The notes under the pieces were generated by a model, which did not search any database, was not told where the DNA came from, and saw only the letters and a program-made list of their open reading frames with translations. From Fundidesulfovibrio terrae (GTDB taxonomy: Bacteria; Desulfobacterota; Desulfovibrionia; Desulfovibrionales; Desulfovibrionaceae), in the NCBI RefSeq assembly GCF_022808915.1, contig NZ_JAKZFS010000001.1, forward strand, positions 558,001 through 622,000: a DNA stretch of 64,000 nucleotides, read 5' to 3'. Positions within the stretch are counted from its first letter, which is position 1; every line of letters starts with the position of its first letter. This document shows positions 21,648 to 40,432 of this stretch, in pieces. A program made the translations under genes and the position numbers.

Positions 21648-21706
21648 ATAATAGTGGAACAGAGTCTTTTGTGAAGGGTACATAGGGGTATAGGGCTATG
21701 TGGGAG
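21648..21706 (-). promoter_or_regulatory. Putative operator and promoter of the lysis cassette
   Basis: Inverted half-sites ACATA (21680-21684) and TATGTGGGA (21697-21705) are separated by 12 bp. On the minus strand a -10-like TATTAT begins 27 nt after the proximal half-site, and the 5' leader to the transglycosylase would be about 85 nt. The half-site TATGTGGG and the distance to the -10 nearly match the capsid operon site (35459-35507) and the 37356-37404 site; the spacer between half-sites is 8 bp longer here. Confidence 0.55.
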
Positions 21707-21806
21707 AATTAATCGTGCCCGGTGCGGCCGGGGCCAGGCGTCACGCTTCTGGCCTTGCAGGATGTTCCGGTGTATCGAGAACCATCGACACCTATCCGGA
21801 GGCACT

Positions 21807-22517
21807 ATGGGCAAGTTGCGGGAATTGCGGAAAAACGTCCTGGACGCGCTGCGGAAGGACCCCTGGCCGGACGGTCTGGCCAGCCTGGAGGAGCATGCCC
21901 CCAAGGCGCTTTTGGGGCCGCTCTTCGCTTGCCTGCTGGAGCCGGCCCCGCTGGTGCGCTGGCGGGCGGCCTCCGCGTTCGGCGCGGTGGTGTCCCGGCT
22001 GTTCGACACGAAGCCCGAGGACGCCCGCCAGCTCATGCGCCAGTTCATGTGGCGCCTGAACGAGGAGTCCGGCAACGTGGCCTGGGGCGTCCCCGAAGCC
22101 TTCGGGGAGATCCTGGCCGCTCAGCCCGTGCTGGCCCGGGAGTTCCACCTGGTACTGGCCTCCTACATCCACGAACGCGACTGCAAGACCGGCGACAACT
22201 ACCTGGAGCTGTGCCCCTTGCGGCGCGGCGTGTACTGGGGCCTGGGCAGGCTGGCCGAGGCCAGGCCCGAGCTGGCCCTTGCCGCGCTTAACGACCTGGT
22301 CCTGGCCCTGGCCGGAGACGACCCGGAGAGCCGGGGCCTGGCCGCCTGGGGCGTGGGGGGACTTCTGCCCCTGGCCGGAGACGGGCGTGGTGCGGCCCTG
22401 GCCGGGCTCGAGGCGCTCACTGGTGACGAGTCCCCCCTCGAGTTCTATTCGCACGGCAGCCTGACGCGACGGAGCGTGGCGGACATGGCCCGGGAAGCTC
22501 TCGCAAAAGCCTCTTGA
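21807..22517 (+). CDS. HEAT-repeat-like protein (DVU0298-type)
   Basis: About 236 aa from the ATG at 21807, preceded by CCGGAGG. Alpha-helical throughout, with repeated units (PLVRWRAASAFGAVV, PESRGLAAWGVGGLL) like HEAT repeats. It resembles a Desulfovibrio-restricted family I recall as DVU0298; that label is from memory. Two Cys-containing stretches (HERDCKTGDNYLELCPLRRG) may form a small metal site. Probably a protein-binding scaffold. Divergent from the lysis cassette. Confidence 0.75.
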   Translation: MGKLRELRKNVLDALRKDPWPDGLASLEEHAPKALLGPLFACLLEPAPLVRWRAASAFGAVVSRLFDTKPEDARQLMRQFMWRLNEESGNVAWGVPEAFGEILAAQPVLAREFHLVLASYIHERDCKTGDNYLELCPLRRGVYWGLGRLAEARPELALAALNDLVLALAGDDPESRGLAAWGVGGLLPLAGDGRGAALAGLEALTGDESPLEFYSHGSLTRRSVADMAREALAKAS

Positions 22518-22583
22518 CCATTTTTTAGGAAGGATTATTACTCAGTCATGGTCCCGAAATCAAAGAGCGCCCAGGAGGCATCC

Positions 22584-22928
22584 ATGGCTGAGCTGAAGAG
22601 TTTCAAGGAATACGACGTGGACTGGGAGATGACCCCCGAGGCCGCCGTGACCCTGTATCTCGAGTGGGGAAACAACTGCTGGCTGAACGAGTTCAAGCCC
22701 GTGCGCTACAGGAGCGACTCCACCACCTACTTCGTGGTGAACACCTGGGAGCGCGAGCCCAAGCTCATGCTCATCAAGCGCACCAGCGACGACGCCAAGG
22801 AGTTGGCCATCCTGCCCCTGCCGGACCACCTCAGGGGAAATTTTCTGGAGCACATCGGCAACAACAAGGGCGTCTACGCCCCCACCCCCGAGATCAAGGA
22901 TTGGCTGCGGACCCAGCTGAGCAACTGA
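22584..22928 (+). CDS. Small conserved protein (DVU0772-like), function unknown
   Basis: About 114 aa from the ATG at 22584 (AGGAGG upstream). Acidic soluble protein beginning with KSFKEYDVDWEMTPEAAVTLYLEWGNN; I recall this opening from a Desulfovibrio family labelled DVU0772. No catalytic motif is visible. It has its own terminator. Confidence 0.75.
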   Translation: MAELKSFKEYDVDWEMTPEAAVTLYLEWGNNCWLNEFKPVRYRSDSTTYFVVNTWEREPKLMLIKRTSDDAKELAILPLPDHLRGNFLEHIGNNKGVYAPTPEIKDWLRTQLSN

Positions 22929-22948
22929 AAACGGATGATCGCCTCCTC

Positions 22949-22975
22949 AAGGCCGGGAAACCGGCCTTTTTTATT
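22949..22975 (+). terminator. Rho-independent terminator
   Basis: Stem AAGGCCGG / CCGGCCTT with GAAA loop, then TTTTATT, 20 bp after the small conserved gene. Confidence 0.9.
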
Positions 22976-23048
22976 GCCCTGAAGCCACCCGGAATGTAAA
23001 AAATCGGCGCGGAAGGTGGAAAGACTCAGGGCGTGTCTGGAGGCAACT

Positions 23049-23432
23049 ATGGAAAACGCGGGCATCCTCATCGTGGAGGACGAACGCATCATCGCCTTGG
23101 ACCTGCGCAGTAAGCTCGCCAAGCTCGGCTACACGGTGATCGGGCTGGCCCACACCGGCCTGGAGGCTGTCAGGCTCGCGGCCGAACTCAGCCCGGATCT
23201 GATCCTCATGGATATCATCCTCGACGGCAGTTTCGACGGTATCGAGGCCGCCCGGCGTATCCGCGAGCATCGGGAAATCCCCGTGGTGTTCGTTTCCGCC
23301 TGCAACGACGTCTCCACCAAGGAGCGCGCCGGCCGCACCGGCTGCCTCCACTTCGTCTCCAAGCCCGTCGACGCCCGCGAACTCGCGGAGCGCATCCACG
23401 AAGCCCTGTCCGGAAACGGAGAATGCGGCTGA
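23049..23432 (+). CDS. Single-domain response regulator
   Basis: About 127 aa from the ATG at 23049 (GGAGG upstream). A receiver domain only: acidic pair in ILIVEDER, phospho-acceptor Asp in LILMDIIL, Lys in VSKPVD. The LDGSFDGIEAARRI loop is typical of receivers paired with hybrid or PAS kinases. It overlaps the phosphoesterase by 10 bp, and with the Ser/Thr kinase forms a three-gene signalling operon; the phospho-donor is unknown. Confidence 0.92.
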   Translation: MENAGILIVEDERIIALDLRSKLAKLGYTVIGLAHTGLEAVRLAAELSPDLILMDIILDGSFDGIEAARRIREHREIPVVFVSACNDVSTKERAGRTGCLHFVSKPVDARELAERIHEALSGNGECG

Positions 23433-24163
23433 TCGTTCTCTCAGACATCCACGGCAACCTCGAAGCGCTCCTGGCCGTGCTGGCGGACGCGAGGCGCGTG
23501 GCGCCGGGCGCGGCCATCGTCTGTCTGGGCGACGTGGTGGGCTACGGCGCCGACCCGGAAGCGGCCGCGCGCATGGTCATGGAGTCGGGCGCGGCCTGCG
23601 TCATGGGCAACCACGAGATGGGCGTCACGGACCTGCGCAGCCGCTCGCGTTTCAACCCCCAGGCCTGGGACTCCGTTCTCTGGGCCAGATCCAGGCTTTC
23701 GCCGGAAACCAGGCGCTGGATGGCCGGTCTGCCCGCCAGCTTGAGCCTGGAGGGGTGCCGCTTCGTCCACGGCCTGCCGCCGGACGAGGTGGACACCTAC
23801 CTGTTCCAGGCATCCGCCGCCAAGGCCGTGCAGGCCATGGAAGGCATCGCCGAGGATGTCTGCTTCGTGGGCCACACCCACCAGCTGCGGCTCGTGCGCG
23901 TCGAGAATGGCCGCCTTTCCGGGGGACGCCTGGAGGAAGGCGTGAGCCGGCTGGCCCCGACGGTGAAATACATCGTCAACGCCGGGGCCGTGGGCCAGCC
24001 CCGCGACGGCAACCCCAAGGCAAAATACTGTCTCTACGAGCCGGCCTCCCGGGAGCTCGTCGTGCGTTTCGTGGACTACGACGCCCAGGCCGCCGCCGAC
24101 AAGATCATCGCTTCGGGCCAGCCCAGGGTCTACGCGGACCGGCTCACGCAGGGCGCTTCGTGA
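23423..24163 (+). CDS. Metallophosphoesterase (YfcE/MJ0936-like)
   Basis: 246 aa. Calcineurin-type dimetal site: SDIHGN at residue 8, GDVVGYG, GNHEMG, VHGLPPDE and GHTHQ. Short cytoplasmic phosphodiesterase or protein phosphatase; substrate unknown. The stop overlaps the GTG of the Ser/Thr kinase, so it may serve as the opposing phosphatase, but that is inference. Confidence 0.9.
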   Translation: MRLIVLSDIHGNLEALLAVLADARRVAPGAAIVCLGDVVGYGADPEAAARMVMESGAACVMGNHEMGVTDLRSRSRFNPQAWDSVLWARSRLSPETRRWMAGLPASLSLEGCRFVHGLPPDEVDTYLFQASAAKAVQAMEGIAEDVCFVGHTHQLRLVRVENGRLSGGRLEEGVSRLAPTVKYIVNAGAVGQPRDGNPKAKYCLYEPASRELVVRFVDYDAQAAADKIIASGQPRVYADRLTQGAS

Positions 24164-25512
24164 AGCGCATCGGCAAGTACGAGGTCCTGGGACTCCTGGG
24201 CCGGGGCGGCATGGGCTCGGTCTACAAGGTGGCCATGCCCGTCACGGGCAAGATCATGGCCCTTAAGCTCCTGGCCCCCAACCCCTTCCTGAAGACACTC
24301 ATCGGGCGCGCCGAGATCGAGCGCCGGTTCCTGGCCGAAGCCCACACCTTGGGCGCGCTCAGCCACCCCCATGTGGCCTCCGTGTGGGATTTTGGACGGG
24401 CCGGGCGGCGGCCGTTCTTCCTCATGGAATACTATTGCCGCGACCTGGGGCAGGTCATCGGAGAGACCGCCGAGGCGGAGGCCGCAACCCGCAGGCTCCC
24501 CTTGCCGCGCGCCGCCGGGTACGCCGTGCAGACCCTGGACGGCCTGGACCGGCTGCACCACGCGGGCATCGTCCACCGCGACATCAAGCCCTTCAACCTG
24601 CTCCTCACCGACGAGGACCAGATCAAGATCACCGATTTCGGGCTCTCGCGGGTGCGCGGGGAGGGCGTGGCCAGCTCACCGGGCCTCAAGGTCGGCTCGC
24701 CCTACTACGCCGCCCCCGAGCAGGAGGACGACCCCGACCGGGCCGGGCCGCGCGCCGACCTTTATTCCGTGGGGGTGACGCTCTATCGGATGCTCACCGG
24801 GCTTCTGCCCGAGTGGCCCCTGGAGGGCGATCGCCTGCCAAGCCGCCTCTCGCGCGATCTGGACGAGGCCTGGGACGACTTCTTCCGGCGGGCCCTGTTC
24901 CCCAAGGCCGAAGGCCGTCACCGCGACGCCCGGCACATGGCCGCCGAGATCACCGTACTGCTGGCGGACTGGAAAAAACGCCTGGAAAACGCCTGCCGGT
25001 TGGAGGGGGAGGGCGAGCCGCCCCCGTGCCCAGTGCCGGGACTGGGCCAAGCCCGGACGAACCCCCTGAAGGTCTCGGGGAAAAACGCCCGCGAGGCCCT
25101 GGGCCTGGACCAGCTCTGGCGGCCCCGCTGCTACACCGTGCAGCGCCTGTCCCCTCGGGTGGGGACCGTGCTGGACGAGACGTCCGGCCTGGAATGGCAG
25201 CTGTCCGGGAGCCGGTACCGCCTCACTTGGTGGGAGGCCCACGAATACGTGGCGCACCTGAACGCCACCGGGTTCGCGGGGGCGCGCGACTGGCGGCTGC
25301 CCACGGTGGAGGAGCTGGCCCGGATCATGACCCCGCCCGCCGAATTCACCGGCCATTGCCAGAGTCCCGTCTTCGACGAGGAGCAGCGCCTGCTCTGGAG
25401 CGCCGACCGGCGCGCCTTCACCCAGTCCTGGTTCGCGGACATGGAGCTCGGAGCCTTCGCCTGGGCCGACATGACCTGCAGGAGGCACGTGCGGGCGGTG
25501 CGCACGAGTTGA
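24160..25512 (+). CDS. Ser/Thr protein kinase with C-terminal DUF1566-type domain
   Basis: 450 aa from GTG 24160. A Hanks-type kinase domain covers about residues 4-270: Gly loop GRGGMGSVYK, Lys in MALKLL, HRDIKPFNLLL catalytic loop, DFGLSR and GSPYYAAPEQ activation segment. After a linker the last 120 residues (GLEWQLSG, YRLTWWEAHEYVAHLN, DWRLPTVEEL) match the DUF1566/Lcl C-terminal fold usually seen in extracytoplasmic proteins. No transmembrane helix is seen, so the tail would be cytoplasmic here. All catalytic residues are present. Confidence 0.92.
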   Translation: MKRIGKYEVLGLLGRGGMGSVYKVAMPVTGKIMALKLLAPNPFLKTLIGRAEIERRFLAEAHTLGALSHPHVASVWDFGRAGRRPFFLMEYYCRDLGQVIGETAEAEAATRRLPLPRAAGYAVQTLDGLDRLHHAGIVHRDIKPFNLLLTDEDQIKITDFGLSRVRGEGVASSPGLKVGSPYYAAPEQEDDPDRAGPRADLYSVGVTLYRMLTGLLPEWPLEGDRLPSRLSRDLDEAWDDFFRRALFPKAEGRHRDARHMAAEITVLLADWKKRLENACRLEGEGEPPPCPVPGLGQARTNPLKVSGKNAREALGLDQLWRPRCYTVQRLSPRVGTVLDETSGLEWQLSGSRYRLTWWEAHEYVAHLNATGFAGARDWRLPTVEELARIMTPPAEFTGHCQSPVFDEEQRLLWSADRRAFTQSWFADMELGAFAWADMTCRRHVRAVRTS

Positions 25513-25567
25513 AGCAACATGCAAGAGTGCATGCCAGGAAGGCTCGCACTCGCGTATCTCCTCAGCT

Positions 25568-26848
25568 TCAGGGGGCGGCCGGATACCTCCTGTCTTTCTC
25601 CGGAACTGCCATGGCGGCCTCAAGCCAGGGGTGGATGTCCTGGCCGGAAGCGAACCGGGCCCTGTTCTCTTCCATGTATCGCACGTGCGCCCAGATATTC
25701 GGTGTGTACCGTGCGGGATTCCCGTCTCCGAATCCCAGGAACTTCCGCGGGTTGGCGTCCCACATCAGGTGAAAGTGTTCGATGGGCAGTATGTATTGGC
25801 CGGTGAAGCCGTGCCAGTAATCAATTTCCGTGCTGACCATCCGAAGAAGCCAAGTGTCCGATCCCCACAGCACCTGGCCGCGACATTCCTCCCTGGCAAT
25901 TATCGTGGCCAGGTTCCCCAGATAGCCGCTTGCCAAGGGGCCGGGCAGGGAGTCCTCATGGAAGGACACGTCGGCGAAAACCCTGTCGCGGTATCCCTGC
26001 GAACCCATCAGGGCCAATATGAGGCTGGACCATGAACCCGATTGGAAAACGTCCTGGAAACTGCCATTGGGTTGTTTTTGCACGAAGTTCTCCGACCCAC
26101 CGAAATGTGCGAAGCAGATCTTCAGCTTCGGAAACGTGTCCAGGAATCCGTCTCCGTCATCGACCAGTCCCCACAGTTTCGGACTGCAATTGTCGGCGGT
26201 TACGTTGTCTTTCTTGAACCCCCCTTGGTTGCAGTGCATCAGCATGGGAATCTCGTTGTCGTTGCAGTACTGCATGACATCGGACATACCCGCGTCCGTC
26301 AGGCTGTAGCCCAAGGAAGGGTAGAGCTTCACTCCCACGAAGCCACCGCGGCACAGGCACTGCTTGGTCCGTTCAACGAAATTCCGGCGGTTTGGGTTCA
26401 CGGCGTAGAACGGCAACATCCGGCCGGGATAGTTGACCATCTGTCGCTGGGTGTCCTGGACTTGGCGATCCAACTGGTCAGGCCGGGCCGGCACTGGGTC
26501 TGGCTGGGGTTGGCAGAGGATGTCCATCATCAGGGGGACGAAGATGAAGGGGTCGCCGCCTTCTTCGTCAAGTTGTTCGACCATGTCCTTGGCCACCAGG
26601 TCCATGTTGGAGAGAGTGCCCAACTCAAGGGCCGACCATGCGTCCCCGTGCCTCCATCCCCGGGGGAGTCCCTGGGTGTCGCTTCCGGAGTGGTGGACCA
26701 TCACGGCTTTAATGAAACCGATGGCCAGTTCGGCCCCGCCTCGGCTGAGGCCGTGGTCCTGGATCAGGCGATTTTTCAGTATGAAGACAGTGTCCTGGTT
26801 GAAAACGGACTGCAGGTTGAAAACATGGCAATGGGTGTTGAAACGCAC
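25568..26848 (-). CDS. Amidohydrolase-2 type TIM-barrel metal hydrolase
   Basis: About 426 aa from GTG 26848, chosen because AAGGAGG lies just upstream. Metal-binding motif NTHCHVFN at the start, then GVKLYPSLGY, MLMHCNQGG, KICFAHFGG and LWGSDTWLL in the order of amidohydrolase-2 family barrels (decarboxylases and lactonases). Substrate unknown. Insertions make it longer than usual. It precedes, by 57 bp, a membrane protein gene on the same strand. Confidence 0.8.
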   Translation of the reverse strand: MRFNTHCHVFNLQSVFNQDTVFILKNRLIQDHGLSRGGAELAIGFIKAVMVHHSGSDTQGLPRGWRHGDAWSALELGTLSNMDLVAKDMVEQLDEEGGDPFIFVPLMMDILCQPQPDPVPARPDQLDRQVQDTQRQMVNYPGRMLPFYAVNPNRRNFVERTKQCLCRGGFVGVKLYPSLGYSLTDAGMSDVMQYCNDNEIPMLMHCNQGGFKKDNVTADNCSPKLWGLVDDGDGFLDTFPKLKICFAHFGGSENFVQKQPNGSFQDVFQSGSWSSLILALMGSQGYRDRVFADVSFHEDSLPGPLASGYLGNLATIIAREECRGQVLWGSDTWLLRMVSTEIDYWHGFTGQYILPIEHFHLMWDANPRKFLGFGDGNPARYTPNIWAHVRYMEENRARFASGQDIHPWLEAAMAVPEKDRRYPAAP

Positions 26849-26905
26849 GGTGCCTCCTTGTGAGGGGTTCACGCCGCAATTGCGGATAAGGACACGTCGG
26901 CGCGC

Positions 26906-27931
26906 TCAACTGCCGGCCGTTGGGGACTGACCATCAGGCTTTTTGCTCAAGCGTATGACCTGTTGGAGCACCTGGAACCAGAAGGGGGCTCCCAGAGAAA
27001 CGGCCAGGATCGTGATCAGCCAGCCCACGGCCTTAGTGGCCCAGTCCCTGGGAGCGTCGGGCACCAGGCGCGGATCGTCGCTGTTCCAGCCCAGGGGGAG
27101 TTTGGCCATGATGCCCGAGTCCAGGAATTTGGCCAGTTGGGCTTCGGGCGTGGCTCCGGGCGCGGGTTTGACCAGATCCTGAATCTGCGTGTTGAGGGCC
27201 GGGCGCAGACTCTGGTCCATGGACAGGCTCCGGCAAATGCCCAGGGTATCGGCGTTGGTCAGCACCACGATGAGCAGGCTCATGACCAGGGCAGTGTATT
27301 GGGCTTGGCGCTTGTACCATCCGCTGGCCCGGTCCATGGTGGAATCGTACCAGCCGGCGATGTTGACCTTGAGCTTGTCCATGTCCCCGGCCGCGTCTTC
27401 CATCAGAACCTGCAAGGCTCCCTTCACGGTATCGTTGTCCGTGATTTTGTCCACGGCGGCCTTGAAGTTCGGGAAGGTCATGGGTGGGGCCTGTCCGTCG
27501 CCTGTCCCTTTGAGCACGTTGTCCATGAAAGCCATGACGAAAGAGTTGGAGGGAATGTACGAGGGGAGGTTGTTGGTGAGCGCCTTGGCGTCGTCGTACG
27601 ACCCTTGGTAAAGGCTGAAGATCAACGGATGGGTGTAGAAGTTATCCAGCAGGCCGGGCGGTTCGCTTTGGACGGGCTGGCCTGTGCTGTCCGCCCGCAT
27701 GCGGTTGCACAGGCTGGCTTTCAGGTTTCTCGAGCTTTTCCAGAGAACGCCGAGGGCCGAATTTGTGCCTTGGCCCGCGTCGAAGAGTTCGCGCAAACCA
27801 GCATCCAGATTATTCGCCCGCAGGCTCAGGAAGTTGAGGGCCAGTTCGTTGAGTGTGGAGCAGATAAGGCTCAGGAGCAGGAAGACAAACAACAATCCAA
27901 CAATAGTTTCCAGGGTGGCGGAATTGAACAT
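26906..27931 (-). CDS. Membrane protein of unknown function
   Basis: 341 aa. An N-terminal transmembrane segment (GLLFVFLLLSLICSTLNELAL) is followed by a 200-residue hydrophilic loop, a second segment (YTALVMSLLIVVLT) and a third near the end (GWLITILAVSLGAPFWF). The opening, with STLNELxLNFLxLRAxNL, recurs in uncharacterised membrane proteins of diverse bacteria. Good site GGAGG before the ATG. Probably cotranscribed with the amidohydrolase downstream. Confidence 0.75.
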   Translation of the reverse strand: MFNSATLETIVGLLFVFLLLSLICSTLNELALNFLSLRANNLDAGLRELFDAGQGTNSALGVLWKSSRNLKASLCNRMRADSTGQPVQSEPPGLLDNFYTHPLIFSLYQGSYDDAKALTNNLPSYIPSNSFVMAFMDNVLKGTGDGQAPPMTFPNFKAAVDKITDNDTVKGALQVLMEDAAGDMDKLKVNIAGWYDSTMDRASGWYKRQAQYTALVMSLLIVVLTNADTLGICRSLSMDQSLRPALNTQIQDLVKPAPGATPEAQLAKFLDSGIMAKLPLGWNSDDPRLVPDAPRDWATKAVGWLITILAVSLGAPFWFQVLQQVIRLSKKPDGQSPTAGS

Positions 27932-28198
27932 GCGGCCCCTCCGTGGTGTGTCGGCGTGATGTTTGTAAGGCGTTTTCGGTTCTTACGTATAATAGTTATT
28001 TAATGTCCTCTGTTATTTGATCTGCTTCTCGCGTGTGGTGCCATTGTGGCGGATGACAAGAGGTAGATTTGGCCTCTTTACATGTGCGAATATCCCAGGT
28101 GAAATTAAAATGTACAGCTGAATTGCGCTTCGATAGATAAGATATGGCGGGATAAGAGACGTGGACTGGTCGAGCTCTGCCTGGGCGCCTCCTGGGCG

Positions 28199-30237: not shown

Positions 30238-30243
30238 CTCTCC

Positions 30244-30774
30244 TCACTTGAGCGCAATGGGCAGCCCGGCCACCACCAGCCTCACTTCGGAGGCCGCCCG
30301 GGCCAGGCGTTGGTTGAGCGCGCCCTGCGCCCTGGCGAAGCGCCTGGCCAGGGACGTGGGCGCGATGGGGCCCAGGCCCACCTCGCAGCTCACCAGCACA
30401 CACGCCGGGGAGCCCTCGGCCACGAACCCGGAAAGGCTCCCGGCCAGTTCCTCCGCCAGCTCTCCGACCAGTTCATTCGGGCGCTCCGGGGCGCTCTCCA
30501 TGCAGGCGAAGAGCCAGAAGTCCAGGCTGTCCACCAGCACGTTCCGGCCTTTGGCCGCGGCGTCCGCCAGGGCCTCGGGTAGCCTGGGCCCGGGCTCCAG
30601 CACCGGCACGCGCGGGTCGCGGCGCAGGCGGTGCTCCAGGATCTGAAGGCGGAACGCCGCGTCCCGGGCAGCGCCCATGGCCATGACCACGCCGGGGCCG
30701 GGGGCGGCGCGGAAGTACTCGTACGCCAGGTCGGACTTGCCCGACTTCTCGCCGCCCAGAATCAGCCGGATCAT
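30244..30774 (-). CDS. cobU: Adenosylcobinamide kinase/guanylyltransferase CobU
   Basis: 176 aa. P-loop LILGGEKSGKSDLAYE, then VLVDSLDFWLF, SCEVGLGPIAP and the closing VVAGLPIALK, all in the order of CobU. It phosphorylates and guanylates cobinamide in the nucleotide-loop assembly of cobamides. The start overlaps the stop of the cbiR-like gene (ATGA), which supports a joint role in cobamide salvage. Confidence 0.93.
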   Translation of the reverse strand: MIRLILGGEKSGKSDLAYEYFRAAPGPGVVMAMGAARDAAFRLQILEHRLRRDPRVPVLEPGPRLPEALADAAAKGRNVLVDSLDFWLFACMESAPERPNELVGELAEELAGSLSGFVAEGSPACVLVSCEVGLGPIAPTSLARRFARAQGALNQRLARAASEVRLVVAGLPIALK

Positions 30775-31517
30775 TCCGGACGCCTCCAGTCCCGCGTTAG
30801 TTTGGTAAAATTTTCAAGGCAGTCGCGCAAGTCCGATTCGGAAAAAACCTCGAAGAGTATCGGGGTATTCGCCCCGATCAGACCGAGCACCTCAAGGATG
30901 GTCCGGGCCTGGCTGGGGGAGAGCTCCGAGAGCGGCAGGTGCTCGTGGCGCTCGCGCACGATGCCCGGCGCGTAGCAGTGCACCAGTTCCACCCGGCCCG
31001 GCAGGTCCGGCTCGTCCAGGAGCCAGTGCTGGCCGAAGGCCATGAGGTGGCCCACGTCCAGGCACACGGGCAGGTCCAGGTCCTGGATCACGGGCCAGTG
31101 GGCGCGGAGATCCTGGCCGGGTATGTTCTCCACCATGAGCCGCCAGCCCGGGGCGCGGTCGCGCCACAGGGCGGCCACTCCGGCCAGCCGCGCGGGATCT
31201 CCCGGCGGGTGCAGAACGCCGCCCCAGGGGGAGAGCCTGCCCGGGAGCTCCATGAGGCGGGAGATGATGTCCCAGACCGTCTCGGGGCCGTCGTCCCAGG
31301 GCAGGTCCACGGGCAGGTGCACGTGGGATTCGAGGTGGTCCGGGGCGGCGAAGTCGGCCGGGGTGTAGGCCAGCGACGCGGCGCTCTGGTAGAAGAGCAG
31401 GGCCACCTGCCGGATGGGCAGTTTCCACGCTCCAATGCGCCGGAGGTTTTCCGGCAAAGTCTTTGGCCAGAGCCAGCTGGTGGTCGCCAGGGGCCAGCTG
31501 GGCGGGGTCTTGTTCAT
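30771..31517 (-). CDS. cbiR: CbiR-like cobamide-remodelling hydrolase (AP-endonuclease-2 type barrel)
   Basis: 248 aa. Opens with ATTSWLWPKTLPENLRRI; SHVHLPVDLPWD, MVENIPGQDL, VCLDVGHLMAFG and ELVHCYAPG are metal-ligand regions of the sugar-phosphate isomerase/AP endonuclease 2 fold. CbiR, described in Akkermansia, removes the lower ligand part of incoming cobamides so they can be rebuilt; I assign it from overall pattern plus its 4-bp overlap with cobU. A generic isomerase-fold protein is the alternative. Confidence 0.65.
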   Translation of the reverse strand: MNKTPPSWPLATTSWLWPKTLPENLRRIGAWKLPIRQVALLFYQSAASLAYTPADFAAPDHLESHVHLPVDLPWDDGPETVWDIISRLMELPGRLSPWGGVLHPPGDPARLAGVAALWRDRAPGWRLMVENIPGQDLRAHWPVIQDLDLPVCLDVGHLMAFGQHWLLDEPDLPGRVELVHCYAPGIVRERHEHLPLSELSPSQARTILEVLGLIGANTPILFEVFSESDLRDCLENFTKLTRDWRRPE

Positions 31518-31633
31518 TGATTCACTTGCACGGGAAAGTTACATTTGGTAGACAGCCGGTGGCTCGCGGCGCAGGCTTCTTCTGTCAAAAAAGCGCCCCG
31601 GGCGGAAGCGTTTTCCAGCGGAGGTGTTAGCTC

Positions 31634-31777
31634 GTGACGCGCTTTCGAAATGCCTTTCACCATGTGTTCAATCCCCTTCACGTGTATTGCCGCCTGAAGG
31701 ACATGGGGCTCTCCGCCCCCGTGGCCAAGAAGATGTGTAAAGCCTACGAGCGGTTCGTCTTCCGGCTGCTGCCGTAA
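31634..31777 (+). CDS. 47-aa basic protein, hypothetical
   Basis: GTG start with GGAGGT 8 bp upstream. The product begins VTRFRNAFHHVFNPLHVYCR and continues LKDMGLSAPVAKKMCKAYE to end in RLLP. It is basic, contains two Cys, and has codon use like the chromosome (GC-rich third positions). No family is recognised. Divergent from the cbiR-like operon. The ribosome site and composition support it. Confidence 0.55.
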   Translation: MTRFRNAFHHVFNPLHVYCRLKDMGLSAPVAKKMCKAYERFVFRLLP

Positions 31778-31892
31778 CACGTACCCCTTCTCAAGAAGGG
31801 CCTTCGCCCTTCCCCGGATTTCTGCCCCCCTTTGAATTCCCCTGATGTGATGGTTGATGGACCGTCGCGGCTGCGCCGTGGTGCGCCGGGCT

Positions 31893-31970
31893 GCGGCCGG
31901 GATCGTAGGTGGAGATCCGGTCGTACTGCTTGCCGGAACCGGTGTCCTTGGAGATGGAGCGGTCCAGATC
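31893..31970 (-). pseudogene. Fragment of a second SU10-type capsid gene
   Basis: On the minus strand this translates to LDRSISKDTGSGKQYDRIST followed by YDPGR. It aligns with IDRYIAKDTDTGNSYDRVYV of the intact capsid protein 1.7 kb away, with 14 of 26 residues identical by hand count including YDP-x-R. The flanking sequence no longer encodes the rest and no start or complete domain is present. A remnant of a duplicated or older capsid gene. Confidence 0.7.
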
Positions 31971-32037
31971 CGATGCGGCGAGGGGGGGATCAGATTTCCA
32001 ACTTGTTCGGGAGGATGCTCCGCCATTCACCAGGTGT

Positions 32038-32066
32038 TTGACATATCGTATTTACTATTTTATAGC
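32038..32066 (+). promoter_or_regulatory. Strong sigma-70-like promoter
   Basis: TTGACA, 17-bp spacer, TATAGC, in AT-rich sequence. It points toward the AT-rich stretch ending at the hairpin near 32456 and would give a transcript of about 400 nt. Best promoter match I found in the island. Confidence 0.55.
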
Positions 32067-32246
32067 GTTAACTGGTTTGTGGATGTGCGCGAGTGGATGG
32101 GGCGAAGAGTAGTATTGGCTATGATGACTGGCGAGGGGGGGGGGCTGTGCTGAAGATAATATCTTTTGAGCTTTGTAAGATAGTCGTCAGTTGTTTGTTG
32201 GGGTATGGGCTCATTTTTTTGTACAAAAGATTGATGGTTGGATAGT

Positions 32247-32381
32247 ATGGTTGCAGAAGATCAAGCCAAGCTGGCGAAGAAAATAGCAAGGGAAATTTAT
32301 TCTGGAGCTATTGGGGTTGCCATTTTGTATTTTTTGTATGGAAAATATTACGGAGGAGGATGCTGGCTGTGGGCTCAGTAG
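32247..32381 (+). CDS. Possible 44-aa small membrane peptide
   Basis: ATG at 32247; an N-terminal charged helix (VAEDQAKLAKKIAREI) is followed by a hydrophobic stretch (GAIGVAILYFLYGKYY) and GGGCWLWAQ. It resembles small phage or toxin-type membrane peptides in layout only. There is no clear ribosome site, so it is a weak call. It lies inside the putative 400-nt transcript. Confidence 0.3.
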   Translation: MVAEDQAKLAKKIAREIYSGAIGVAILYFLYGKYYGGGCWLWAQ

Positions 32382-32455
32382 CTCCTTGTTTACGACATAT
32401 TCTTGATGTGTTGTGGTATAGTGCTCAGTTTGTTTTTTTCTATTATGTGGTCGTT

Positions 32456-32504
32456 GGACTGTGCGGCAGTTGAGCCGCACAGTCCGCTGGATTATTTTTT
32501 CTTT
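32456..32504 (+). terminator. Hairpin terminator, 12-bp stem
   Basis: Stem GGACTGTGCGGC / GCCGCACAGTCC with a 6-nt loop, then GCTGG and a T-rich tract. It would end the + strand transcript from 32038 and, from the other side, the capsid operon whose last gene stops at 32492. Confidence 0.6.
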
Positions 32505-33037
32505 AAATCATAACCAATAGTCGGGTCGGTCAACTTTAAGATGTTTTCTGTGGCTGTGTGACCTCCTCCATAACCTTTCAGGGCCGCCCACCCTGCCGCG
32601 GGAGCAGTGACAATTCCGTCATAGGCGGCCAGCCCGGCGGCAGTCCCGCTTATTGCGCCACCTGCAACTGCCAAACCTTTTTTTTCGTCTGGCGTAAGTT
32701 TTCGAAACTCCATGCGTTCGTCTTGCATGGGAAGCCAGTGCTTATAGTCCGGGTTGGGATTTGATGGGTCATATTCAACGACCCCTCCCGGCGTCTGGTC
32801 CGTGTAAACCGGGCCAAATTGTTCTTGCCGCTTCTTTGCGTTCTCCCAAGCCCGATCTTCATCCAGTTTGGCTGCCGTCACCGGATCAAGCCGCGTCATT
32901 TCACCCCCTTGGGGGTTGTACATGTACGTGCCTCCATCACGGTATTCGTATTGGGTGCCGTTGCTGTCGAAGAAGTTCTTCTCGTCCTTGAGCCACGAGT
33001 AGTCCGAAAAGCTGGGGTCGTCGATGCGTTCGCTCAT
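32492..33037 (-). CDS. Capsid-operon protein with MSER/DYxW N-terminal motif
   Basis: 181 aa, unrecognised. The N-terminus MSERIDDPSFSDYSWLKDEK shares MSER, F-x-DY-x-W, D-x-KN-x-F with the protein at 36711-37277. A hydrophilic middle leads to a hydrophobic Gly/Ala-rich segment (LAVAGGAISGTAAGLAAYDG) that could enter a membrane. Good AAGGAGG site. Last gene of the capsid operon, 12 bp after the previous one. A minor virion or ejected protein is one possibility, unproven. Confidence 0.7.
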   Translation of the reverse strand: MSERIDDPSFSDYSWLKDEKNFFDSNGTQYEYRDGGTYMYNPQGGEMTRLDPVTAAKLDEDRAWENAKKRQEQFGPVYTDQTPGGVVEYDPSNPNPDYKHWLPMQDERMEFRKLTPDEKKGLAVAGGAISGTAAGLAAYDGIVTAPAAGWAALKGYGGGHTATENILKLTDPTIGYDLKKK

Positions 33038-33049
33038 GGTGCTCCTCCT

Positions 33050-33433
33050 TTAGAGCTTCTCGTTAGAAGTTGATTCCACAGTCCCGTCCGCCTTCCCGCT
33101 CCCCGCATCGGCGCTCGCGCCGCAGGAGACGATCTTGCTTCCGGTAGCCAGGGTGTTGTTGGCCGTGTCGTCGCAGGCCTTGAATTCGGGTCTGGTCCTG
33201 AGCAGCCAGTCCAGCTGGTCCCGGTCCATGTTCATGGCGTGGACGTCCTCCTCAAAATCCCCGCGCGGCATGTAGACCGGGATCACGGCCTCGATGCGGC
33301 AGTCCTTGAAGAAGCCGCGCTGGTCCTCGGGCAGGCTCCTCAGAAATTTGTTCAGCGCCAGGATGGACAGGTTGTCCTGGGTGGCGGTGGCGCGCAGCTC
33401 CTCGCCGGTGAGCGTTATGCGATGCTCGATCAT
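33050..33433 (-). CDS. Capsid-operon protein, unknown
   Basis: 127 aa, acidic, with no recognised domain: MIEHRITLTGEELRATATQD, then a helical middle (LALNKFLRSLPEDQRGFF) and a low-complexity Ser/Gly/Asp tail. Strong CAGGAGG site. Encoded between the capsid protein and the MSER protein; it follows a GC-rich hairpin that could reduce its expression relative to the capsid. Confidence 0.7.
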   Translation of the reverse strand: MIEHRITLTGEELRATATQDNLSILALNKFLRSLPEDQRGFFKDCRIEAVIPVYMPRGDFEEDVHAMNMDRDQLDWLLRTRPEFKACDDTANNTLATGSKIVSCGASADAGSGKADGTVESTSNEKL

Positions 33434-33448
33434 CGTTCCTCCTGGAAA

Positions 33449-33472
33449 GGGGCGGGCCTTGCGGCCCGCCCC
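33449..33472 (-). terminator. Intercistronic hairpin after the capsid gene
   Basis: Perfect 10-bp stem GGGGCGGGCC / GGCCCGCCCC with a 4-nt loop, 19 bp past the capsid stop, followed on the minus strand only by a short CCTTTCC. Likely an attenuator or mRNA 3'-end stabiliser rather than a full terminator. Confidence 0.55.
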
Positions 33473-33490
33473 TGTTTGGTCAGTTGTCCG

Positions 33491-34447
33491 CTAGTCGGTC
33501 GCGCACTTCTTGCACTTGGCGGCGGACTTCTCGTTGTGCATGACGAAGGTGGCCTCCACGATGGACTGGCACTTCACGGAGTCGCCGGTCTGGGCCAGGT
33601 CCACGCACTTGAAGGGCCGCAGGAACGCCATGGAGCAGCGGCTGGGGTCGTAGACGTAGACCCGGTCGTAGGAGTTGCCGGTGTCGGTGTCCTTGGCGAT
33701 GTAGCGGTCGATGGTGACCTTCATGCGCCCGAAGGGGGTCTCCAGCACCATGACGGCCATGACTAAGGTCTGCTCGGAGGCGTTGGTGTTGACGGTGATG
33801 CGCCCGGCCTGGTTCCAGTTGGCGATCTTGCGGGCCTGCACCGGGCCCACCAGGATCACCGAGGGCTCGCCGCCCGCCTCGTAGCAGGCCTGGGACATGG
33901 CCAGCAGGTCGGCCTCGGAGAAGTCGTTGCCGGAAGCGTAGGCGGCGTAGGACTTGTCGTTGGTGGTGACGAAGCCCTCCAGGCCCTTCATCTGGCGGGC
34001 GGTGCCGGCGTCTCCGGCGTTGGCCGTGGCGTTGTTCAGGGCGGCGTATTCGAGCTCCGTGTTCAGGTACTTGAAGCTCTTGTCCATCTCGTACTGCTTG
34101 ACGCGCGAACGGCCCAGCGGGGTCACGGCGTCCAGGGTGCCGGAGATCTTGAAGGTGTCCTCCAGGATCTGGCAGTAGTTGGACAGGCGCACCGGGGCGG
34201 TGCGGGCCTGGGCCACGGCGTCCGCGCCCTCGATGGCTTTATTGGCGCCGGTGGGGGTCTTCAGTTCGTCCTCGAGCCATTCGTGCAGCACGTTCTTGGC
34301 CTTGAGGGTCTTGATGGAGGAGATGAAGGGCGTCTTGTGGGGAGTGACCGTCTGAATCATGTTCTCCACGTCGACGAAGATGGAGTCCTTCATCTCGCGC
34401 ACTCCGGCGCCGGAATTGGAATAGTAGGACGTAAGGGAATCGGCCAT
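33491..34447 (-). CDS. Major capsid protein, SU10/DUF5309 family
   Basis: 318 aa. Family features in order: SDIxxN-like start ENMIQTVTPHKTPFISSI, AKNVLHEWLEDEL, AIEGADAV, VRLSNYCQILEDTFKISGT, LNTELEYAALNN, GGEPSVILVGPVQARKI, YDPSRCSMAFLRPF, LAQTGDSVKCQ and MHNEKSA. This is the HK97-fold capsid protein of SU10-like phages and many prophages. Length is complete. The C-terminus carries CKKCATD, an extra Cys pair. AGGAGG precedes the ATG. Preceded by a candidate scaffold gene, but no portal, protease or terminase is nearby. Confidence 0.9.
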   Translation of the reverse strand: MADSLTSYYSNSGAGVREMKDSIFVDVENMIQTVTPHKTPFISSIKTLKAKNVLHEWLEDELKTPTGANKAIEGADAVAQARTAPVRLSNYCQILEDTFKISGTLDAVTPLGRSRVKQYEMDKSFKYLNTELEYAALNNATANAGDAGTARQMKGLEGFVTTNDKSYAAYASGNDFSEADLLAMSQACYEAGGEPSVILVGPVQARKIANWNQAGRITVNTNASEQTLVMAVMVLETPFGRMKVTIDRYIAKDTDTGNSYDRVYVYDPSRCSMAFLRPFKCVDLAQTGDSVKCQSIVEATFVMHNEKSAAKCKKCATD

Positions 34448-34477
34448 TGCGAGGAATCCTCCTTTCGCAGGTTGGGG

Positions 34478-35398
34478 TTAGCGGGGGGAGCTGTCGCCCA
34501 TGGACAGCTCGATGTAGCGCAGCAGGTCGCCCTCGCGGGCCTGACCGGCCTTGCAGCGCGCCTTGAGCGCGGCCAGTTCGGCCGCGCGGGTCGCGCCGGG
34601 CAGGCGGTCGTCCAGGATGCCCGCGGATTCCAGGGCGGGGGGGCTCATGCGCCCGGCCACGGCCTGCCTGATGCGAGCGCGTGGATCAGCGTTGCCGGGC
34701 TGGGGCATGGGCTGGGAAATGGGAGCGGTGCCTCTGAGGTCGCGCTCAACGGAGGCGCGCAGGTGGGTGTACAGGTCCAGGAACGCGCCAGGTGTGCGCT
34801 CGACGGCTTCAAAGAAAGGCCTCTGAACCTTGGCGGGTAAAGACCGTACATACCCTTCAAGTCGCCTGAGCACATAGCCGAACAACGGATCGTTGGACTG
34901 GAGCACGGCCAGCATGGCCTGGTTGTTGACCAGCTTGCGCTGGGCGCGGCGCTGCTGCGCGGCCTGCATCATCTGCTTGCGCTGGGCCATCATGTTCTGC
35001 CACTGCATGCGGCCCATGGGGTCCATGGGGGGCGGGCCCATGGGGGCGTCGGGGATGCCGTCGCCGTCCACGTCGATGCCCTCCAGGTGTTCGATCATGC
35101 CCGGGCGGGCCTTGAGGCTCGCCAGGATGGCCTGCAGGGGCACCTGCGACGGGGCGGGCTGGCCGGGCTGGGGCATGGCTGAACCGGGGGCGTATCCGGT
35201 TCCGGCCTGAGGTTGGGGCGTTCCCTGGGCCATGGCGCGGCGGCGCAGGATCTCCTCGTCGGGGAGGTCGGATTCGCCGGGCGCGAAACCGGCGAGGTGC
35301 TCGAGGTAGCGCTTGTACCTCAGTTCGTTGGCGGCCTGCTGGTCGACCGCCCCGGCGGCGGCGTAACCGGCGGGTCCGGCGGTGGTGGGATAAGGCAT
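34478..35398 (-). CDS. Capsid-associated protein, possible scaffold
   Basis: 306 aa. The N-terminal half is rich in Pro, Gln, Ala and Met; IDVDGDGIPDAP resembles a calcium-binding DxDxDG loop. A long Gln/Arg/Met helix (MMAQRKQMMQAAQQRRAQRK) follows, then a helical C-terminal domain. The highly helical, Gln-rich character and location directly before the capsid gene fit a scaffolding or head-completion protein. First gene of the operon, about 55 nt after the predicted start site. Not matched to a named family. Confidence 0.65.
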   Translation of the reverse strand: MPYPTTAGPAGYAAAGAVDQQAANELRYKRYLEHLAGFAPGESDLPDEEILRRRAMAQGTPQPQAGTGYAPGSAMPQPGQPAPSQVPLQAILASLKARPGMIEHLEGIDVDGDGIPDAPMGPPPMDPMGRMQWQNMMAQRKQMMQAAQQRRAQRKLVNNQAMLAVLQSNDPLFGYVLRRLEGYVRSLPAKVQRPFFEAVERTPGAFLDLYTHLRASVERDLRGTAPISQPMPQPGNADPRARIRQAVAGRMSPPALESAGILDDRLPGATRAAELAALKARCKAGQAREGDLLRYIELSMGDSSPR

Positions 35399-35458
35399 TC
35401 GGGGTTCCTCCTTGAGAGGTGGTTATTTTCCTTGGCTTCCCGCGCCAAGGTTCCCCGA

Positions 35459-35507
35459 ATTCTATGCAGGCGGGTTTTTATTTCACCCCACATAGCGGTA
35501 TGTGGGG
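35459..35507 (-). promoter_or_regulatory. Operator and promoter of the capsid operon
   Basis: Perfect inverted repeat CCCCACATA-N4-TATGTGGGG (35486-35507). On the minus strand a -10-like TAGAAT (35459-35464) begins 26 nt from the inner edge of the repeat's proximal GGGG arm. The repeat would be centred near -44, the place for an activator acting at the -35; no good -35 hexamer is present (GGTGAA), which fits activator dependence. Confidence 0.6.
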
Positions 35508-35519
35508 AGAAAGTTGAAA
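35482..35519. repeat. Direct repeat copy A (about 38 bp)
   Basis: Carries the operator plus flanks, from TTCACCCC through a GAAAAAA tract. The copy at 37379-37416 has the same orientation and differs at 3 positions by hand count. The intervening 1.9 kb includes a low-GC gene and the 37.3-kb N-motif gene. Confidence 0.8.
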
Positions 35520-35668
35520 AAAATTGAGGAGAGGAGAGGGGGCAGGACAAGACGACTTTCTCGAATCAGGGAAACGACATCTTGTTTTAATATTTGTTGC
35601 GCTATATCAGGTCCGCATGGAGCAATCGTGGATAGCGCCCAAAACCGTTCGATCCCTAGGAGTAGTGA

Positions 35669-36655
35669 GTGCTAAAGAAGGTTTTGATATTCATCGTCGG
35701 CTTTTCCCTGTCGGTGCTGCCGGTCGCCACAGCGTCCGAGCGGGACGATCTGATATCAGTTCGAAAGTATTGCAAGGATTTTATTGGAAAAACGACACGG
35801 GATCTTCAGTCTGTTTTTGACGTATGGAATAAAACTGCAAACAGAGCTGTTGTAATGCCAGATAATAGCGCTGAAGCGTTTGCTATTAATGATATATCCG
35901 TTGATGTTTTGACGCTGAGAGCATTCATCGAGTTGGCGCAAGATGTTTTGTTGGCCTCTGGTGTCGAGATGGGCATCGCTCTCGATCTTGGCAAGAAGCC
36001 TGTCATATATGGCGATGCCTTAAAACGATTCCCAGGGGCTATCCCCGTGCTCGCAGACAGAATAATTTCCGGGTATGGCTCCTTGCCCTCGCAAGAGTTG
36101 AAGGCGGCAGGAAAAGAGATGGCTCCATATCTTAAAAACCTGGTTGCGGCTTTTGATGGTTGGCCGGGATCGTATTTGCGAGAACATATTGGCGATGAGC
36201 CTTATGGGAAGGGGGAGCTCTCAAAAGGAATGGTTGAATTGGCGACACGTGTAGATAATGTTAATGATGCATCGGTGAAATATTTCAAAGACATGGAGCG
36301 TGCTGAAAAAGTGGCCATGAAAAATGGCATGGATTATATTTATCTGTTTCGGCAGACACAAAGGAGCATCACTTCGCTGTCGATACTTGTTCCGGATGTA
36401 TACATGCTGTTGGTTGTTGGGGAGAGGCTTCAGGCTGTTGGATCACAAAAAAACTTGTCAAAAAATGACAACGAATTGATCATATATTATTTGCGGGGGA
36501 GAATGGCGCGGTACAAAGAGGTGCTTGATCTTCTTGATAAACAGTGCGCTGTTCTGTGGCCAGATGAAAAAGCTCCATGTACTGTCATGGTGGATCAGTT
36601 TAAGGAGATGTACATGCAATTCGAAGCAAATGCCTTGCCGCTAGGTATTCAGTAG
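35669..36655 (+). CDS. Low-GC secreted protein, unknown
   Basis: About 328 aa, GTG start. The N-terminus (LKKVLIFIVGFSLSVLPVATAS) is a signal peptide; the mature protein is helical, with no recognised domain or catalytic motif. Third codon positions are rich in A and T, unlike every neighbour, so it was probably acquired. It lies divergently next to the capsid operon operator. A 15-bp hairpin follows its stop. Confidence 0.7.
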   Translation: MLKKVLIFIVGFSLSVLPVATASERDDLISVRKYCKDFIGKTTRDLQSVFDVWNKTANRAVVMPDNSAEAFAINDISVDVLTLRAFIELAQDVLLASGVEMGIALDLGKKPVIYGDALKRFPGAIPVLADRIISGYGSLPSQELKAAGKEMAPYLKNLVAAFDGWPGSYLREHIGDEPYGKGELSKGMVELATRVDNVNDASVKYFKDMERAEKVAMKNGMDYIYLFRQTQRSITSLSILVPDVYMLLVVGERLQAVGSQKNLSKNDNELIIYYLRGRMARYKEVLDLLDKQCAVLWPDEKAPCTVMVDQFKEMYMQFEANALPLGIQ

Positions 36656-36660
36656 CGTGA

Positions 36661-36697
36661 TGGCGCTTGCTGCACCTCGCTTGTGCAGCAAGCGCCA
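36661..36697. terminator. Convergent hairpin, 15-bp perfect stem
   Basis: TGGCGCTTGCTGCAC / GTGCAGCAAGCGCCA with a 7-nt loop between two convergent stop codons. There is no strong T run on either side, but position and stem strength support termination in both directions. Confidence 0.65.
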
Positions 36698-36710
36698 TCG
36701 CATGGTTCAT

Positions 36711-37277
36711 TTAAAAGGATTTTCCCGAGTCGATGATTTTGGTGCCGGTATCCCACACATCCCATACCTGCTTGGCCGGAACGGGGAGCAGGCCAGAAGC
36801 CGTCCCGATCACACCTTCCATCCGTGTCCTTTGTTGCTCTGGCGTGAGAGGCTGCCCGGAAGCCTGCAAGGCTGTCATGGTCAGGGCCTTGGGGACATTC
36901 AGGCCTGGATGCCAGGTCTTTGTCAGGTCGCTTACGGTTTCTTCCACCGGCGTATCATAGTCCAGGCTCGGGTGGACCTCCAGACCCACGCCGCGAACGA
37001 TGCCTTTGCCGAAGCCCGAGAGAATCTGGACGAAAGGATTCTCCATGTACTTGTTGTACGGCATCCTGCTCTGCCAGCCGCCTTCGCCTTCCCTGGGCGC
37101 CCGGATGACCGGGGTGTCGGGGTCACTGGCGGTCCCATCGCCTCCAACTTGTGGGGATGAATCCTGCTTCGGTGTAAGCATTGCGTCCCAATTGGACTCC
37201 CGATCGGCGAACGTGTTCTTCACGTCGTCCGTCCACGCGTAATCTTCGAATCCGGTGCCTTCACTGCGCTCGCTCAT
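36711..37277 (-). CDS. Second protein with MSER/DYxW N-terminal motif
   Basis: 188 aa from the ATG at 37277 (AAGGAGG upstream). The N-terminus MSERSEGTGFEDYAWTDDVK shares its pattern with the last protein of the capsid operon, while the remaining sequences differ. The middle and C-terminus have no known domain. It has its own copy of the operator and promoter at 37356-37404, so it should be expressed with the capsid genes. Confidence 0.7.
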   Translation of the reverse strand: MSERSEGTGFEDYAWTDDVKNTFADRESNWDAMLTPKQDSSPQVGGDGTASDPDTPVIRAPREGEGGWQSRMPYNKYMENPFVQILSGFGKGIVRGVGLEVHPSLDYDTPVEETVSDLTKTWHPGLNVPKALTMTALQASGQPLTPEQQRTRMEGVIGTASGLLPVPAKQVWDVWDTGTKIIDSGKSF

Positions 37278-37355
37278 GAGTAACCTCCTTCTGAGCGTAA
37301 AGTTGTTCCTTGGGCATTTCACTCGACATCCGGCACTCCTCCGGAATTGGCCGCG

Positions 37356-37404
37356 AGCATAGCCAGGCGCGGATAAAATTCACCCCACATAGCGGTATGT
37401 GGGT
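37356..37404 (-). promoter_or_regulatory. Operator and promoter of the 37.3-kb N-motif gene
   Basis: CCCCACATA-N4-TATGTGGGT (37383-37404), one mismatch from a perfect inverted repeat, with -10-like TATGCT (37356-37361) at exactly the same offset as TAGAAT in the capsid operon. It would give a 5' leader of about 72 nt. Confidence 0.6.
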
Positions 37405-39990: not shown

Positions 39991-40050
39991 ACACACCTCC
40001 AGGGTCTGGGCCGCGCCGGGAAGCGGCGCGGCCGGTTGGGGGCCTGGACG

Positions 40051-40416: not shown

Positions 40417-40432
40417 GGGTTTTCCTCCGCGA

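Follow-up and report, generated by a model that had tools for sequence, protein, structure and literature searches.

Phage-particle genes dispersed behind a predicted promoter with a palindrome near -44 in Fundidesulfovibrio: candidates for a gene transfer agent-like particle

Three minus-strand gene groups of phage character lie among host genes in a 64,000-nt stretch of the Fundidesulfovibrio terrae genome (contig NZ_JAKZFS010000001.1, positions 558,001 to 622,000; hereafter the window): (i) an operon at 35.5 kb for an MPYP-family protein, an SU10-type major capsid protein and two further genes, (ii) a gene at 37.4 kb for a protein with a short N-terminal motif (N-motif protein), and (iii) a lysis cassette at 21.7 kb (Table 1). 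A first-pass annotation had proposed one operator/promoter design for all three, governed by a single activator as a domesticated regulon. Comparison across the genome (G000, 3.9 Mb, Fundidesulfovibrio-type, including contigs C1, C2 and C4) and with its relatives indicates that nearly all fragments of phage-particle genes sit behind one predicted promoter, in which a palindrome near -44 together with a T-rich tract replaces the -35 element.

The compact palindrome CCCCACATA-GCGG-TATGTGGGG (window 35486-35507), its one-mismatch copy (37383-37404) and the split arrangement ACATA-N12-TATGTGGGA (21680-21705), taken in the first-pass annotation as the third site, were all recovered at their positions, as were the minus-strand hexamers TAGAAT (35464-35459), TATGCT (37361-37356) and TATTAT (21653-21648). 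The half-site TATGTGGG occurs six times in the window against 0.66 expected, a count reached in none of 100 shuffles, and five of the six copies fall in the three sites. By these shuffles, and by a reversed-pattern control for the genome, the two compact sites stand far above chance. As to the common design, the two compact copies are canonical, whereas the site at 21.7 kb is a related variant and not a copy; the spacings of 26, 26 and 27 nt originally given for the hexamers agree with the offsets of 41, 41 and 42 in Table 1.

Table 1. Predicted genes and promoter elements of the three gene groups (window coordinates)
Feature	Position	Strand	Remark
81-aa last cassette gene	19909..20154	-	candidate small terminase, judged from gene position in related phage L150; no family match
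84-aa conserved cassette protein, membrane-like segment (by eye)	20161..20415	-	
Holin-like 58-aa protein	20423..20599	-	weak: phrog_34682, E 0.0036
Secreted-looking nuclease (SNase)	20596..21063	-	PF00565, E 3e-18
Endolysin (SLT transglycosylase)	21072..21557	-	PF01464, E 2.3e-13
-10 hexamer TATTAT, lysis promoter	21648..21653	-	offset 42
Variant operator CCCTATA-CCCC-TATGTAC, lysis cassette	21678..21695	-	class present once per genome, five species
N-motif protein (MSER..DPSFSDYSW...), Gly/Ala-rich hydrophobic C-terminus (by eye)	32492..33037	-	
127-aa gene 3' of capsid gene	33050..33433	-	104-aa frame at this place in G120, G172
Major capsid protein, SU10 type	33491..34447	-	PF17236, E 1.4e-75
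306-aa MPYP protein, scaffold slot directly 5' of capsid gene	34478..35398	-	dispersed paralogs behind same promoter
-10 hexamer TAGAAT	35459..35464	-	offset 41
Canonical operator, scaffold-slot/capsid operon	35486..35507	-	centre ~-44.5 from inferred start; promoter model 67.0 bits
T-rich tract 5' of capsid-operon operator, UP-element-like	35508..35522	-	conserved across site set
N-motif protein (MSERSEGTGFEDYAW...)	36711..37277	-	homologs behind sites in G001, G004
-10 hexamer TATGCT	37356..37361	-	offset 41
Canonical operator, N-motif gene	37383..37404	-	promoter model 67.2 bits

Genome-wide, the pattern CCACATA-N4-TATGTGG (up to two mismatches) is matched at 19 places and its reversed control at 2; the random occurrence that was to speak against a regulon was thus not observed. 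One match (C2:89890) lacks the promoter architecture, lies inside a called gene and was discarded as a false positive, leaving 18 sites. Their ungapped alignment comprises a T-rich tract (TTTTTCaacTTTctTc), CCCAYATAGSGSTATRTGGG, usually gtGAAA, about ten poorly conserved bases and ccTGnnTAnnnT. Measured from the first base of the 18-mer, the offset of TANNNT is exactly 41 in 16 of the 18 sites, a count somewhat favoured by the choice of site orientation by eye from the -10 location. A nineteenth site (C1:644928, L106) was found by the promoter model, bringing the proportion to 17 of 19. When sites of six genomes are pooled, this offset is seen in 69 of 86 oriented sites, against at most five for any other offset between 19 and 74; the former number is biased upward, since the extra sites were found by a model containing the -10, and the pool (matrix cut-off 20) omits five listed entries representing reverse palindrome readings or weaker divergent partners.

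Counted from the -10, which is of sigma-70 type and from which the start is predicted, the palindrome centre lies near -44.5, i.e., at the usual location of a -35 element. No -35 element is present, its slot being occupied in most of the 19 sites by GGTGAA or a similar sequence, and many sites have a TG just 5' of the -10, one base off the usual extended -10. A sigma-54 promoter was rejected, as the GG-to-GC spacing is unsuitable (judged by eye against the consensus). The sites span about 710 kb of contig C1 (88762 to 798850) and are also found on contig C4. A degenerate extra site without a -10, excluded from all counts, is present at C4:144937 (L107 position 4908) next to remnants of a module of the MRTEQEL family (see below), which suggests local duplication and decay.

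As anticipated in the first-pass annotation for such a scan, matches precede phage structural genes, namely those for (i) the terminase large subunit (TerL), the portal and a 96-aa protein (C1:724787), (ii) an SU10-type adaptor (C1:727733), (iii) a pair of supposed virion proteins of 500 and 380 aa (L017_500/380; C1:764464), homologs of which are encoded in late operons of related prophage-like regions, and (iv) a tail collar fibre and a fibre assembly protein, followed by further genes (C1:798850). Gene frames are mostly home-made calls, those of the peptidase named below and of C1:499961 stemming from a first-pass frame reading. SU10_MCP, SU10_portal, SU10_adaptor and Terminase_6N are among the Pfam families of the regulon proteins, SU10_MCP being the only one reported for the capsid protein (E up to 0.1). 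Scanning of the downstream proteins, to which this search was limited, revealed no integrase or replication genes.

The remaining sites precede accessory genes. MPYP-family genes stand behind four sites, that of the capsid operon included, and a second family (MRTEQEL...), perhaps comprising more distant scaffold-slot paralogs, behind C1:88762, C4:146679 and C1:644928. Related N-motif genes follow C4:228827 and C4:231209, the intact one with a marginal SLT match (E 1.3e-4), while C4:95781 and the site at 37.4 kb in the window precede proteins beginning MSER or VSER; proteins starting like the N-motif protein at 36711..37277 also stand behind other sites. An M23 peptidase is encoded behind C1:632305, with a divergent site serving a 130-aa protein, and an uncharacterised frame behind C1:499961. 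The protein behind C1:350496 (L012:4573-5616, plus strand) carries near its C-terminus an eCIS-core domain (PF13699, E 2.3e-5), named after contractile injection systems, and has weaker homologs behind sites in G001, G002 and G004. Within the window, the space between the two canonical promoters holds, on the opposite strand, a 328-aa frame without PHROGs match (35669-36655, plus strand), and three Hsp20-family genes in a row (39532-40849, minus strand) adjoin the regulon locus, two of them being matched at the same place in G005.

In case of the lysis cassette, the endolysin and nuclease domain calls were first made on a longer reading of the frames. All five cassette genes are conserved in G001, G003 and G004, and G002 has the set minus a matched holin-like gene; the cassette has the same host neighbours in all five genomes (G000 and the four relatives examined). 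The promoter model matches the site at 21.7 kb partially (E 0.0016 within the window, 14.3 bits), its score with the ungapped matrix is negative in every register tried, and the canonical promoter is absent from all loci with a lysis cassette, including 1.5 kb on each side. The conserved register is CCCTATA-CCCC-TATGTAC with the -10 at offset 42 instead of 41 (hand count). All five cassettes carry CATRCCCCYATGTRCC (one mismatch in G000 and G002) and TANNAT at offset 42 (hand count). Each of G000-G004 contains a single instance of this 19-base form when up to one mismatch is allowed, and none was found in G005 or in G006 (66 % complete). The lysis site is therefore viewed as a conserved variant class of the predicted operator, with the same four-base gap between half-sites, changed outer bases and one additional base to the -10.

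The distribution of the promoter was assessed with a sequence model (R1) built from the 18 promoters, counting sites at E 1e-5 or better. Such sites are present in 6 of 149 genomes when the family is scanned and in 6 of 348 for the order, and all six carriers belong to this genus; the large genome sets were scored with stricter filters, at which weak matches are lost. Homologous operons with the promoter are present in G001, G002 and G004, and similar genes stand behind sites in G003 and G006 (by eye); this association of promoter and operon in other species of the genus supports the first-pass proposal. In G002 and G006, several contigs (L095, L097, L100, L105, L127) end no more than about 1 kb downstream of a site, which looks as though the assembly had failed at the repeated module genes. 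The portal is encoded in six of the seven genus genomes (missing from G005) and the capsid protein in five (missing from G005 and the incomplete G006). The capsid locus is adjacent to the same host gene (37505) in G000, G001 and G004. Copies of the capsid-gene 3' end (about 50 codons) lie downstream of the capsid operon in G004 (L070:8225-8374, 94 % identity to the G000 protein) and G001 (L082:2308-2460, 88 %), as after tandem duplication; G001 also has an extra copy of the 127-aa gene at this place.

G005 contains neither portal nor capsid gene, nor any promoter site even at E 1. Its stretch C19:143000-162000 is collinear with 11 to 43 kb of the window, where 21 of 25 host gene calls are matched in order and none of nine regulon gene calls; about 690 bp remain between the flanks of the capsid locus and about 420 bp between those of the lysis locus (the outer lysis flank being a short match). 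A tree of seven concatenated host proteins places G005 as sister to G000 (99.7/100; six genomes, unrooted, G006 left out), and an HtpG tree with outgroups places it beside G000 with weaker support (85/87). Since G005 stands beside G000 in the host trees, the dispersed set was probably lost together in this genome, as would a functional unit once unneeded.

The regulon genes appear to be under selection, some of them weakly, pN/pS ranging from 0.21 to 0.65 across those tested. TerL, portal and L017_500, plus capsid and adaptor where complete, are open frames under purifying selection in the species compared, and the TerL motifs are intact in five species (by eye). TerL, portal and capsid genes show a synonymous divergence (dS, 0.32 to 0.63) close to the values of the two host genes (0.31, 0.42) that served as the only yardstick. 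The lysis locus in five genomes, the pN/pS values and the portal in six of seven genomes point to vertical inheritance under purifying selection. Capsid, portal and packaging genes are intact overall, apart from the portal and capsid genes of the G003 assembly.

Contiguous counterparts of the scattered genes are present outside the genus. In two other genera of the family (G120, G172, G152 and G337), homologs of TerL, portal, capsid, adaptor and the 500-aa protein are contiguous in this order, the scaffold slot being occupied in G120, G172 and G152 by a 320- to 346-aa frame where resolved; prophage-like regions of G140 and G170, i.e., two of six such regions, have matches to capsid, portal and TerL only, the other four showing the full order. 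None of these six genomes is among the six promoter-bearing ones. Phage MW202481 and Pseudomonas phage tf share the order TerL, portal, scaffold, capsid, and the IMG/VR contig L150 (TerL 71 % identical) reads as an ordinary contiguous phage (by eye); TerL and portal are also adjacent in another IMG/VR pair (TerL 56 % identical). The promoter is absent from the examined stretches of these IMG/VR phages, and the viral contigs contain no exact copy of the core form with spacer GSSC, a form which does not cover the two sites of the window. Trees included, for TerL, 4 of 80 IMG/VR loci and MW202481 (with a partial G003 row) and, for the portal, one IMG/VR locus. Phages of the SU10/LUZ24/tf type thus resemble the present set by homologs of capsid and portal (MW202481 and tf), of TerL (MW202481) and, by Pfam, of the adaptor, and differ in having one contiguous late region instead of dispersed genes. 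A contiguous late operon would thus have been broken up in this genus into pieces with a common promoter, which the relatives with contiguous homologs lack; the break-up of a short-tailed (SU10/LUZ24-like) prophage late operon in the genus ancestor is the best explanation of the gene orders.

The order TerL, portal, small protein, scaffold, capsid in related phages explains the slot of the MPYP protein, which is a candidate scaffold by gene order and by a helical structure model with a helical hairpin at its end (moderate confidence, mean pLDDT 67.6). Profile comparison of MPYP with two known phage scaffolds gave no significant signal, and a fold search of the model against PDB no match at E 0.001 or below. 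Likewise, profile comparison of L017_500 with two phage virion proteins yielded no convincing signal and its structure model is poor (mean pLDDT 39.9), its assignment following from the placement of homologs in late operons of prophage-like regions. Scaffold-slot paralogs (MPYP) share the common promoter, and several of them are followed by a second protein bearing a short N-terminal motif; other regulon units carry M23 peptidase, SLT transglycosylase or eCIS-core domains. One may speculate, with considerable doubt, that the dispersed modules form an expandable cargo system, i.e., a host-owned modular carrier of proteins and DNA that arose from multiplication of the scaffold gene; the C-terminal tail of the scaffold-slot protein, also present on an otherwise unlike 130-aa protein, would then load partners into the head.

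Taken together, the genes probably encode a podovirus-derived, host-domesticated particle resembling a gene transfer agent (GTA), the fragments of which are switched on by a putative common activator. Fragments of the prophage late operon and many paralogous accessory genes would have spread over the chromosome in the genus ancestor. A dimeric activator would bind the palindrome near -44, replace the -35 contact and recruit the sigma-70 polymerase, aided by the T-rich tract, and would turn on the genes for capsid, packaging and tail in concert with the cargo-like ones. The variant lysis promoter would respond to this activator or to a paralog of it, perhaps with a different affinity that delays lysis. 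Once assembled, the particle would contain host DNA fragments and behave as a GTA, since genes scattered across about 710 kb of C1 and also on a second contig exceed a phage-sized head; that the particle could not carry its own genes follows from this spread of sites, the capacity of a tailed phage being assumed. The single activator of head and lysis genes proposed in the first-pass annotation remains putative and would face a variant operator at the lysis genes; the proposal of a domesticated regulon is backed by the fixed host neighbours of the lysis cassette, by purifying selection and by the joint absence in G005. Behind the sites, no evident regulator was noticed, and no search of regulator families other than Mor was made; a Mor/C protein is ruled out as the activator by the lack of a match in G000 or G004.

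The palindrome might instead represent a repressor operator, the dispersed genes being held off until the repressor leaves and polymerase alone starts. Long palindromes in front of phage genes are frequently repressor-binding sites, and the TG just 5' of the -10 at many sites could aid an activator-free start. However, this TG is displaced by one base, and a palindrome at the place of an absent -35, at a fixed offset (16 of 18 sites; 69 of 86 in the pool, with the upward bias mentioned), would be needless for repression; moreover, no repressor gene was noticed beside the sites, for which no systematic search was made, so that repression appears unlikely. The split and broken genes of G003 and G000, the high pN/pS of some genes and the loss of the set from one genome would fit a defective, decaying prophage scattered by rearrangement and devoid of present function. 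Against this stand the open frames of TerL, portal, L017_500 and of complete capsid and adaptor genes with their signs of purifying selection, the promoter geometry kept in six species, and the host neighbours retained by the lysis cassette in the four relatives examined, which render decay rather improbable.

Least probable is a role of the scattered genes as structural helpers for a satellite or phage replicating elsewhere in the genome, without any GTA. Such a role would agree with the phage structural genes, next to which no replication genes were noticed (integrase and replication genes having been looked for among the scanned downstream proteins), and with the hydrolase or peptidase domains of accessory proteins, whereas the fixed host neighbours of the lysis cassette in five species and the lack of exact GSSC-spacer core copies in viral contigs (within the limits of that form) argue against it.

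For the GTA-like particle itself, several observations weigh on the other side, in addition to the two biases in the offset counts. Some regulon genes look relaxed (pN/pS 0.5 to 0.65), and dS of adaptor and fibre assembly genes (0.66 to 0.94) exceeds that of both host genes. The scaffold role of MPYP depends on gene order and the helical model, and the module genes behind C1:152528 (an MPYP copy) and C4:228827 appear split in G000. Matches to the Mor family, the only regulator family searched, were obtained in the other five of seven genus genomes, G005 included, and not in G000 or G004. In G001, G002 and G004, the adaptor has a weak or partial site of its own, and the site-bearing loci L071, L072, L083 and L084 contain no homolog of the G000 regulon proteins used. 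The collinear G005 stretch also lacks four host genes (16167, 25568, 26906 and 39532). In G003, the capsid locus is not beside the host gene flanking it in G000, G001 and G004, the portal is split over two contigs, and the capsid gene is distributed over contig pieces, one of them with a stop. The position of the capsid locus in G003 and the absence of these four host genes from G005 lower the confidence in the GTA-like particle minimally. Near the detached 3' part of the G003 portal, L116 (G003:C1:8000-27500) contains distant second homologs of capsid (33 %) and portal (35 %), and may perhaps be a further prophage responsible for the broken portal gene, or an assembly error.

The GTAs of Rhodobacter capsulatus (RcGTA, GafA) and Caulobacter (CcGTA, GafY/GafZ and IHF) are likewise phage-derived, host-controlled and multilocus with a common activator, the activator here being putative. 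In contrast to both, capsid, portal and adaptor match SU10-type families; the RcGTA capsid belongs to the Phage_capsid family, to which the present capsid was not matched by Pfam. In CcGTA, GafY is found at 18 chromosomal sites besides the promoters of gafYZ and the GTA cluster, peripheral genes are co-activated, a main gene cluster exists, and GafY binds far upstream of the -35 and needs IHF (PMC11150451). Dispersed GTA loci under one activator are therefore already known from that account. Compared with it, no main cluster is seen here, TerL-portal, adaptor, capsid, L017_500/380, fibres and lysis forming separate operons, and the palindrome replaces the -35 instead of lying far upstream. New are the complete break-up of the late operon, a promoter with a fixed -44 geometry at about 20 places, a separate lysis class and multiplied scaffold-slot genes.

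The Dd1 GTA comes from Desulfovibrio desulfuricans ATCC 27774, which likewise reduces sulfate and belongs to the Desulfovibrio group. The Dd1 genes are described as an island between Ddes_0703 and Ddes_0715 (PMC5701242), and Ddes_0720, directly upstream of the large terminase, is the predicted small one (PMC6854486); by this description, a contiguous island sets Dd1 apart from the dispersed loci here. With respect to the promoter, Mor of phage Mu binds at Pm to a 16-bp element with inverted repeats centred at -43.5 that replaces the -35 for sigma-70 polymerase, with a partial UP element just upstream (PMC4390567). The present sites share the dyad near -44 (predicted centre -44.5) without a -35, and differ from Pm as described there by their operator sequence, by about 20 dispersed promoters and by the lack of a Mor-family match in G000 or G004.

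GTA-like elements are hard to distinguish from defective prophages (PMC12946183). The particle is called GTA-like here on the basis of its genes, and is a candidate member of the functional class of GTAs. A search of the open-licence literature yielded no paper joining Fundidesulfovibrio and phage. One promoter recognized from sequence ties together most of the particle parts in six species and is absent along with them from the seventh. This offers a means of listing the parts, supplies G005 as a natural knock-out and opens a direct way to the putative activator. If the proposed scheme is true, sulfate reducers would possess a dispersed GTA with a layout unlike that of Dd1, in which a phage late operon has been dissolved into a host regulon.

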